DNA of 64,000 nucleotides from Clavelina lepadiformis (taxonomy: Eukaryota; Chordata; Ascidiacea; Aplousobranchia; Clavelinidae), in NCBI RefSeq assembly GCF_947623445.1, contig NC_135241.1:64501-128500 (forward strand), given 5' to 3'. The translations under genes and the position numbers were made by a program. Shown here piece after piece: positions 3,119-7,400 of this stretch. Under the pieces are notes generated by a model, which was not told the origin of the DNA, searched no databases, and saw nothing but the letters and a program-made list of their open reading frames with translations. The number at the start of each line of letters is the position of its first letter. Position 1 is the stretch's first letter.

Positions 3119-3282
3119 GTAAGTCGTGCGTAGTCGTGCGTAGTCGTGCGTAGTCGGGCGTAGTAGAGCGTATTAGTGCGTAGTCTAGCGTAGTTTAGCG
3201 TAGTCTAGCGTATCCAAGCGTAGTAGAGCGTAGTAGAGCGTAGTAGAGCGTAATAGAGCGTAGTCGAGCGTAGTAGAAATTT
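3119..3282. repeat. 10-bp satellite block 1 (GCGTAGTCGT type)
   Basis: About sixteen tandem copies of a 10-bp unit, consensus gcgtagtcgt with variants such as gcgtagtaga and gcgtagttta. The block begins right at the end of duplication copy 1 and ends at the 'aaatttcgagcgagctcagac' boundary. Because 10 is not a multiple of 3, the frame returns after 30 bases. This produces long accidental open frames in such blocks. Confidence 0.95.
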
Positions 3283-3780: not shown

Positions 3781-4050
3781 TGTCTAGTCGTGCGTAATCG
3801 TGCGTAGTCGTGCGTAGTCGTGCGTAGTCGTGCGTAGTCGTGCGTAGTCGTGCGTAGTCGTGCGTAGTCGTGCGTAGTCGGGCGTAGTCGGGCGTAGTCG
3901 GGCGTAGTCGGGCGTAGTCGGGCGTAGTCGGGCGTAGTCGAGCGTAGTAGAGCGTAGTAGAACGTAGTCGAGCGTAGTCGAGCGTAGTCGAGCGTAGTTG
4001 GGCGTAGTGGAGCGTAGTTAAGCATAGTCTTGCGTGGTGGATCGTTCTGA
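3781..4050. repeat. 10-bp satellite block 2
   Basis: About 26 tandem copies of the 10-bp unit. Higher-order order is visible: a run of gcgtagtcgt units is followed by gcgtagtcgg units, then gcgtagtcga and gcgtagtaga units, so variants are clustered as expected from local amplification. The left edge reads 'gacaaaatctattgtctag', the same as at block 4 (6211). The open frames across it (DYARLRTTTH repeats on the minus strand) are a by-product of the periodicity. Confidence 0.95.
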
Positions 4051-4212: not shown

Positions 4213-4427
4213 TCTAGCGTAGTAGAGCGTATTAGTGCGTAGTCTAGCGTAGTTTAGCGTAGTCTAGCGTATCCAAGCGTAGTCGAGCGTAGTCGAGCGT
4301 AGTCGAGCGTAGTAGAGCGTAGTCGAGCGTAGTCGAGCGTAGTCGAGCGTAGTCTAGCGTAGTCTAGCGTAGTCGGGCGTAGTGGAGCGTAGTTTAGCAT
4401 AGTCTAGCGTGGTGGATCGTTCTGACA
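4213..4427. repeat. 10-bp satellite block 3
   Basis: About 21 tandem copies of the same 10-bp unit, mostly gcgtagtcga, gcgtagtaga and gcgtagtcta variants. The order of variants at its start (tagtgc, tagtcta, tagttta, tagtcta, tatccaa) repeats that of block 1. Blocks 1 and 3 therefore share a higher-order history. Confidence 0.95.
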
Positions 4428-5560: not shown

Positions 5561-5794
5561 CTTGCCTACCATAATTTTCCAAAAACAACAAATACAATTT
5601 TACGTTTAGGAGCGATAGAAACGCAAGATAGAAATGGCCACGCAGATTTTTACAAGATCATCGTTCGTTGTTTCTTCTACGAATCAATTTAAATTTTGTT
5701 TTAATTTCATCATTCATTTTTATTTCAAAGGCAAATTTTTTAAGATTCGATTTTAATTAAAGCAAATTTATACTGTTAAAGATTTATACTTATC

Positions 5795-5832
5795 GTCCCA
5801 TCTTGGTTTACCACGGTCATCCAAGATGGGAC
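5795..5832. repeat. 12-bp perfect inverted repeat
   Basis: GTCCCATCTTGG at 5795-5806 and its reverse complement at 5821-5832, separated by 14 bases. It sits where the 3' half of the first truncated Ser-type tRNA copy should lie. It may mark a deletion or insertion junction. Confidence 0.8.
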
Positions 5833-5887
5833 AAAAAGAGCCCAGCAGACTTCTAGTCTCTTGTCTTAACCACTCGGCCACGACAAC
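5830..5887 (-). pseudogene. truncated Ser-type tRNA copy
   Basis: The 5' half of a Ser-type tRNA is recognisable on the minus strand: GTTGTCGTGGCCGAGTGGTT with acceptor 5' strand, D arm and A box. The anticodon stem is mispaired and the 3' half (T arm, acceptor 3' strand) is missing, replaced by the hairpin at 5795-5832. Its 5' flank matches those of the next two copies, so it is one of three tandem units. Confidence 0.75.
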
Positions 5888-5963: not shown

Positions 5964-6045
5964 CGTTGTCGGCGGGATTCGAACCTGCGCCGGCAAGGCC
6001 CAACAGATTTAAAGTCTGTCGCCTTAACCAATCGGCCACGACAAC
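5964..6045 (-). tRNA. Ser-type tRNA with anticodon UUA (would read UAA)
   Basis: The 82-nt minus-strand sequence folds as a class II tRNA. The acceptor stem GTTGTCG/CGACAAC is perfect and the discriminator is G. The A box is TGGCCGATTGG, the anticodon stem ACAGA/TCTGT is perfect, the variable arm is 14 nt long, and the T loop is TTCGAAT. The body matches eukaryotic tRNA-Ser. The anticodon loop is CTTTAAA, so positions 34-36 are TTA, one base from the usual Ser TGA. The T stem GCAGG/CCCGC has one A-C mismatch. No T4 terminator lies immediately downstream; the first is about 40 nt away. It is the only full-length copy of the three tandem units. It could be a functional ochre-decoding tRNA, but a decaying pseudogene is as likely. 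Confidence 0.7.
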
Positions 6046-6120: not shown

Positions 6121-6177
6121 GCGGGCAGAGCCAAACAGATTTTGAATCTGTCGCCTTAACCACTCGGCCACGACAAC
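6121..6177 (-). pseudogene. truncated Ser-type tRNA copy, anticodon loop TTCAAAA
   Basis: Third tandem copy on the minus strand. The 5' acceptor strand, D arm, a well-paired anticodon stem and part of the variable arm are present. The T arm and 3' acceptor strand are deleted precisely between 'GCCCGC' and the shared 3' flank 'GGAATTGAAATC'. The loop would give anticodon CAA on a Ser-type body. It cannot form a normal tRNA. Confidence 0.75.
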
Positions 6178-6210: not shown

Positions 6211-6270
6211 TATTGTCTAGTCGTGCGTAATCGTGCCTAGTCGAGCGTAGTCGAGCGTAGTCCAAAACGT
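6211..6270. repeat. 10-bp satellite block 4 (short)
   Basis: A short run of four to five units of the 10-bp satellite, with the same left edge as block 2. The preceding bases (caatgcaaatagacaaaatc) are the 5' flank of the tandem Ser-type tRNA copies. The satellite therefore abuts tRNA flank sequence. Confidence 0.85.
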
Positions 6271-6319: not shown

Positions 6320-6391
6320 GGAGGTATAGCTCAGTGGTAGAGCATTCGACTGCAGATCGAGAGGTCTTCGGTTCAAATCCGGGTGCCCCCT
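6320..6391 (+). tRNA. tRNA-Cys (GCA)
   Basis: 72 nt, starting GGAGGTATAGCTCAGTGG, anticodon loop CTGCAGA, T loop TTCAAAT, ending GTGCCCCCT and followed at once by a T5 terminator. The body is the standard animal tRNA-Cys. There is an A3-C70 mismatch in the acceptor stem and two G-U pairs in the T stem, so activity may be reduced. Confidence 0.9.
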
Positions 6392-6601
6392 TTTTCCTTT
6401 TGACATGATGAATTTCACCAGTTTTAGAACTTTCAGCAGGCGCTTGTTTTATACTCCACTCTTTAGCTTGAAATGTTGCGGCTCTGGGGGGCCTTAAACT
6501 TGACGTTTAGAACAAAAGCACCGTTTCTAGGTATGAAATTTCTTTAACATGAAGAGTTTGTTGTTCGTAAAACTCTCCTAAAGACGTCCCTGGGTGGGCT
6601 C

Positions 6602-6641
<40 letters not shown>

Positions 6642-7400
6642 TATTGCGCCACAGAGACATGGAAAATGCTTCGTTTGCTTAGATGCAAGTGAATCAAAAA
6701 TGTTCAAAGGTTTTCTCCTATGTGGCTTTCCGTGTTGCCTTAAAAAACAAAACAGTAATGAATACGATCGTTACTACCATAAACGTGGCTGCTATGTCAT
6801 TTGATGAAGCTTGAATGTCTGTAAACTATACAACACTGAAGGTTAGGATTACTTGTACTGTACCTGGTGGAACTCCGAACGGAAAAAGTTATCTTGCTTT
6901 GCAGCTTTGCTGGACTTAGGATTTGTTTCCTTAGTTTTGAAACCGACGGCAATTATTCTTTTTCTGCGACGTCACATATTCAACCAGAAGATTTATCACC
7001 TGTGTCGCAAGCTGAGTTGGTTGATTAGATTTCATCTGAATCAGATTAGGCTTAGAGTTCTTCTGAAACGGCATAGTAGCAAGCAAAAGCGTACGTTTCA
7101 ATTTCAACCAATGGATGCTGACGTGAGGTGTATCTGCTCGTTTTGTAGTGTTACATATCAGCAAGATTTCCACTGCAATTTGATTCCTCCGATTGATTAT
7201 CTGCTAGGTTTTTATCATATCAGTAGATGTGTTTTGCACGGGTGCCCTGTTTTTCATTTTAACAGGAACAAATTTACCAGTTTTCCAAATTTCAACATAG
7301 CCTGTTTAAAAATCCACTCATGAGTTTGAAATGATGGGGTCGTGGGGGGCCTTAACCTTGACAATATTAAAATCATGACTTGGCGTTTAGAACAAAAGTA
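6392..7400. repeat. diverged direct repeat of the tRNA-Cys 3' flank
   Basis: The DNA after tRNA-Cys (6392-6525) recurs in diverged form at about 7247-7397: both have '...tttttc.ttttga/aaca...accagtttt', then 'ggggggccttaa', then 'gtttagaacaaaag'. The second copy even begins with a remnant of the tRNA-Cys 3' end (gggtgccctg). Between them (6660-7246), besides tRNA-Asn, a 156-codon plus-strand frame is open at 6853-7323, but it has no recognisable product and I do not support it as a gene. Confidence 0.6.
6585..6658 (-). tRNA. tRNA-Asn (GTT)
   Basis: 74 nt on the minus strand with anticodon loop CTGTTAA, a perfectly paired acceptor stem (one G-U) and T arm TTCGAGC. The A box GTGGCGCAATAGG and B box GGTTCGAGCC are intact. 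The nearest T4 run is about 15 nt downstream. It appears functional. Confidence 0.95.

Follow-up and report, generated by a model that had tools for sequence, protein, structure and literature searches.

SerRS does not read the anticodon, and SUP16/SUQ5 of yeast is a tRNA-Ser ochre suppressor gene. How freely, then, can a tRNA-Ser body carry an anticodon that does not belong to serine? Yeast Ser tRNAs are reported to be charged regardless of the anticodon, and an engineered tRNA-Ser(UUA) with a sound body suppresses an ochre allele; in the same report a Pro anticodon made the Ser tRNA lethal, and no transformants were obtained when the anticodon was that of Arg (PMC6827378). UUA-anticodon tRNA predictions are already published for animals. 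The planarian SUP-TTA set, 17 genes at 52 loci, was reported as a surprise, and the genes that were probed gave northern bands, so that tRNA genes with UUA can be transcribed (PMC7962491). Putative suppressor tRNAs (CTA, TTA) are described in two schistosomes and a planarian (PMC2770079), and in zebrafish tRNA-Sup-TTA clusters with Lys-TTT (PMC11417395). Anticodon shifts by point mutation within eukaryotic tRNA families have been surveyed, and the survey's account includes only one shift involving a Ser/SeC anticodon (PMC3923123). Serine tRNA genes in tandem are also found in the Ser/Tyr (SYY) cluster of Arabidopsis, which is reported to be silent in most tissues (PMC12308677).

The ascidian locus described here is similar to each of these systems in part. 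Like the planarian genes, it belongs to a multi-copy set of UUA-anticodon tRNA predictions in an animal genome, but transcription was tested in the planarian (PMC7962491) while the UUA copies here are known from sequence alone. Like the engineered yeast molecule (PMC6827378), it has UUA on a tRNA-Ser body, which was intact in yeast and is damaged here. As in the flatworms, one of which has a huge tRNA-derived family, the predictions concern stop anticodons in animals (PMC2770079). Anticodons have changed by point mutation within a family, as in the surveyed shifts (PMC3923123), but here several times and in copies that are apparently unconstrained. The tandem arrangement recalls the Arabidopsis cluster (PMC12308677), although that is a plant cluster with Tyr units, and the silence that was reported there is inferred here.

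The window, that is, the whole stretch of 64,000 bases that was analyzed, covers bases 64501-128500 of contig C2 in an assembly of 209 Mb and 95 contigs. This offset places the UUA tRNA about 70 kb from the contig start. A search of the assembly for COX1 gave no match. The features around it are as follows.

5964..6045, minus strand: tRNA-Ser-like body with anticodon UUA, class II, A51-C63 and U15 (ARAGORN; RF00005, 61.1 bits; feature scoring)
6010..6012, minus strand: anticodon UUA, body positions 34-36 (ARAGORN; counted on the body sequence)
6031..6031, minus strand: U for a purine at body position 15, off the A-box consensus (feature scoring; 11 counted block copies)
6121..6177, minus strand: upstream tandem unit, a truncated Ser-tRNA remnant without T arm, anticodon loop TTCAAAA (repeat family D1, block alignment; limits by eye)
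5838..5887, minus strand: downstream tandem unit, the 5′ part of a Ser-tRNA, ending where the inverted-repeat sequence starts (repeat analysis, block alignment; limits by eye)
5789..5838, no strand: imperfect inverted repeat with 24-base arms, 83%, the beginning of a dispersed sequence that meets the downstream unit where this is cut
6218..6262, plus strand: 10-base minisatellite TAGTCGAGCG, adjoining the block, as it does beside several other block copies

The sequence-only reading had called a Ser-type class II tRNA with a UUA anticodon at 5964..6045. The same call comes from ARAGORN, which reports three tRNAs in the window and labels this one tRNA-Stop with anticodon tta on the minus strand, a strand that the earlier call had not given, and from the Rfam model RF00005. 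The latter covers the identical 82 bases end to end (model positions 1-71 of 71) with 61.1 bits and an E-value of 8.8e-11, against a gathering threshold of 29; the best of the interior copies scanned reach 64.4 bits. When as many as 3 mismatches are allowed, a 24-base core pattern matches the window twice, at the UUA copy and at one broken neighbor, and gives no match in 100 shuffled windows. The RF00005 score and the empty shuffles together exclude a chance cloverleaf. Both tandem neighbors are truncated, as had been noticed. Two further tRNAs lie close by: a tRNA-Cys(GCA) at window 6320-6391 on the plus strand (60.5 bits), which has an acceptor-stem mismatch A3-C70, and a tRNA-Asn at 6585-6658 (68.4 bits). 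The minisatellite TAGTCGAGCG recurs at window 3122-3274, 3785-4018 and 4216-4410, and a similar 10-base repeat lies next to several of the tRNA blocks found on other chromosome ends. The stretch at window 5700-5838, with the inverted repeat, looks like a small dispersed element; other genomic copies of the inverted-repeat sequence have 73-82% identity. The three stop-to-stop open reading frames of at least 180 codons in the window gave no clue.

How sound is this tRNA body? The acceptor stem (7/7) and the anticodon stem are perfect, as first described, and the variable arm is long, as is proper to class II. The anticodon is complementary to UAA, as an ochre suppressor needs, and it is indeed one base away from the UGA of Ser; the body as a whole is not so close, because 7 of its 82 positions, including some in the variable arm and in the T stem, differ from the commonest sampled interior gene with UGA. 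Of the two promoter boxes that had been taken as intact, only the B box is exact. The A box reads TGGCCGATTGG, with T (U) at tRNA position 15; a purine stands there in 96 of the 97 interior copies sampled, and 84 of the 97 have the A box TGGCCGAGTGG. A sister copy 15 kb away has G at this position, and U15 is private to the window copy, since none of the other 10 block copies counted has it. For scoring the promoters we used what we take to be the A- and B-box consensus. The A-C mismatch of the T stem is present (A51-C63, leaving 4/5 pairs in feature scoring), but it is shared with 21 of the 97 interior copies; thus, alone, it is a mild failure and weak evidence of death. A close terminator is lacking, also as stated before: the first T4 run comes 45 bases downstream, while in 70/97 interior copies such a run is reached within 25 bases. 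Folded to minimum energy, the window copy does not form a cloverleaf and the commonest interior gene with UGA does, although a fold computed on unmodified RNA is a weak test of a tRNA. What a functional tRNA-Ser should have is therefore missing in the T stem, the A box, the near terminator and, as shown below, constraint on the body. What is expected of a tRNA pseudogene is found instead, namely a body homologous to tRNA in which conserved functional positions have been lost and change is unconstrained.

The family from which this copy comes is very large. A Ser-tRNA pattern that spans D arm to variable arm and tolerates up to 2 mismatches has 892 matches in the genome (557 + 335), and its reversed control has none; these totals are complete for the patterns, more diverged copies are missed, and further stop-anticodon copies may exist. 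The copies seen sit in tandem arrays and duplicated blocks, an arrangement that would speak against a tRNA-derived SINE dispersed by retroposition and that differs from the Gln family of Schistosoma mansoni, which is described as almost wholly SINEs (PMC2770079). Among the matches listed, many array units are spaced in steps of about 157-160 bases. At least seven copies have UUA, five by exact pattern, one as a variable-arm variant (on C6) and one as a D-loop variant (C8:97977). Two of them lie at the start of C2, two at the start of C8, one at the end of C6 and two at the end of C9, each 55-105 kb from a contig end. Since C6 and C9 end in TTAGGG telomere repeats, the UUA copies on them are truly subtelomeric. 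At the start of C2, the printed parts of C2:1-1200 read N, as in a withheld or unresolved stretch, and the further sequence scanned from this start gave no tRNA match.

A single segmentally duplicated block accounts for six of the seven UUA copies, and the seventh, C8:104080, is in a different local context. The block consists, in order, of a Ser unit that is truncated in most copies, the UUA unit, and a unit cut at the inverted-repeat sequence. Its junction has 53 matches, of which 16 are near-identical (96-100%); 13 of these 16 places are near contig ends and three are at C1:4.21-4.22 Mb. The tRNA remnant is kept in 14 block copies. Among these, the anticodon of the middle unit is UUA in six, UUU in two, UUG in two, UGA with A33 in one and CGA in one, and two have no recognizable unit. 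A tree built from columns outside the UUA tRNA body puts the UUU, UUG and UGA copies into separate groups, some with weak supports, and thus the anticodon loop has changed at least three times.

Selection on a tRNA should keep it less variable than the DNA beside it. The opposite is seen here: among 11 counted copies of the 16 block places, 19 of 82 sites are variable in the body and 19 of 317 in the flanking non-tRNA sequence (Fisher p = 2e-5). C6:20683060, whose middle unit is CGA, was omitted from the alignment because its anchor motif is missing, and C9:15653342, C5:119603, C1:4.210 and C3:25.72 were aligned and not counted, as they are without the unit. The excess is also present in the seven truncated-block copies only (9/82 against 8/318, p = 0.002). 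Decay of CpG is rejected as the cause of the fast change in the body, because the excess persists after CpG sites are removed (12/64 in the body, 15/296 in the flank, p = 7e-4); the CpG sites alone show no significant difference (7/18 against 4/21, p 0.28). The truncated 3′ tRNA remnant, itself incapable of being a tRNA, has 9 variable sites out of 50, a share that does not differ from that of the UUA body (p 0.52). Conversion by neighboring units or transcription-linked mutation might possibly account for the excess in the body.

Copies across the family were also scored by five criteria of function: an acceptor stem of 7/7, a T stem of 5/5, an exact A box, an exact B box and a T4 run within 25 bases. 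All five are passed by none of the seven UUA copies, by 16 of 97 interior copies, and by 3 of 54 parsed subtelomeric copies (one of the 55 sampled was unparsed), all three with UGA. The criteria are strict, as 81 of the 97 interior copies fail at least one of them, and the three passing UGA copies tell us that not everything near the ends has decayed. The T stem has at most 4/5 pairs in all seven UUA copies, and the B box is altered in those of C6, C8:97977 and C9. C8:104080 comes closest to passing, with exact boxes and a T4 run after 15 bases.

Anticodons foreign to serine are concentrated in the subtelomeric copies, 22 of 55 against 0 of 86 interior ones (p 4e-11), in a sample that was drawn by similarity to the UUA copy, with neighbors within about 1.5 kb, and is not random. 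The 86 are the 97 interior copies minus 11 from stretches fetched for their anticodon. The 22 comprise ACA 11, UUA 7, UUU 2, GCA 1 and ACC 1; altogether, Ser-type bodies with ACA, UUU, UUG, ACC or GCA anticodons were seen. The positional contrast is not clean, owing to the interior amber copies described below and to a cluster at C1:4.2 Mb, far from the ends, in which 6 of 12 copies have non-Ser anticodons; because it holds the same block, this cluster was kept as its own zone outside the contrast. UUA alone would be no argument for silence, by analogy with yeast, which tolerates tRNA-Ser(UUA). Active Ser copies with ACA or UUU are expected to harm the cell, so that the subtelomeric clusters with non-Ser anticodons are likely to be silent.

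Taken together, the window copy is, with high confidence on sequence grounds, a decayed paralogue of a very large tRNA-Ser family, a subtelomeric pseudogene that would have drifted after block duplication. The pseudogene had already been suspected at first sight, and it agrees with the changes of anticodon, position 33, T stem and boxes among the copies and with a body more variable than its flanks. Free drift of anticodon and T stem, which had been named beforehand, for individuals or close species, as speaking against function, is seen here among paralogues within one genome. As a history, it may be supposed that G35 changed to U in a UGA copy within a small block, giving UUA, that the block then spread by segmental duplication to several chromosome ends, and that the block copies have drifted since, to differ in anticodon, position 33, T stem and promoter boxes. 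That UUA is the ancestral state of the block, as well as the order of these events, is inferred. Useful expression is probably absent, through subtelomeric silencing together with the damage to promoter, terminator and folding, and UAA would thus still mean stop.

Might the genome nevertheless keep at least one working tRNA-Ser that reads a stop codon? This seems unlikely, and if it were so, the best candidates would be copies with the amber anticodon CUA on C8, with the UUA copies as a minor or tissue-restricted ochre reader. At least six identical tRNA-Ser bodies with CUA are found at C8:15981291-16006105, arranged as a higher-order repeat that advances by about 3-4 kb at a time within an interior array. 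Their stems are paired (G-U at 1-72), their A and B boxes are exact, and a T4 run follows 9 bases downstream in 6/6; the function criteria were scored for two of the six. A further, damaged CUA copy is at C3:22417116. Among the CUA copies 0 of 82 body sites vary against 14 of 1262 other sites, which is too little power to show selection; four of the six were compared, the other two segments being too short to align. Judged by their sequences, the six are better suppressor candidates than the ochre copies.

Another possibility is that the subtelomeric units are transcribed or bound and do not translate, serving as Pol III/TFIIIC sites (boundary or chromatin) or as sources of tRNA fragments. The exact B box of the window copy, an A box that is exact in 42 of the 54 subtelomeric copies parsed and the recurrence of the units beside minisatellites at chromosome ends are in its favor, but an exact B box is found in only 18 of the 54 against 83 of 97 interior copies, so that the box is not being kept, and we regard such a role as rather improbable.

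Still less probable is a working natural ochre suppressor, which would be transcribed by Pol III, charged with Ser, and insert Ser at some UAA codons. The anticodon, the perfect acceptor and anticodon stems, the long variable arm, the exact B box, the high RF00005 score overall, and the sharing of UUA by seven copies on four contigs would suit it, and to this extent the potential UAA reader first proposed was rightly recognized; beyond the anticodon and the largely sound stems its suppressor role finds no support. The body varies more than the flanks, U15 lies in the A box, no terminator is near, and the middle units of sister blocks read UUU or UUG, which would misread Lys or Gln codons. The release factor speaks against it too, as eRF1 is canonical, with TASNIKS and YLCDNKF kept, and is itself encoded by a gene that ends in TAA. 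A second match to the eRF1_1 domain, presumably pelota, also ends in TAA, and a change of the genetic code to UAA = Ser was rejected on the canonical eRF1 and the TAA ends of both genes, reassignment being judged from these two only. The eRF1 gene lies in one intronless stop-to-stop frame of 439 codons, and its protein looks, to our eyes, animal-like. That an assembly or sequencing error created the anticodon is scarcely credible, for although repeats near contig ends are error-prone and N is printed at the start of C2, UUA recurs on four contigs, in seven copies whose other changes are not the same from contig to contig.

What would this locus mean for the ascidian and its tRNA-Ser family? 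Were it to function, a nuclear ochre suppressor would be naturally encoded alongside a normal release factor. As the pseudogene that we favor, it would illustrate how drift within a huge tRNA-Ser family can give rise to tRNA predictions with stop anticodons, and it warns that no such predictions should be counted as suppressors before drift among the copies has been tested.
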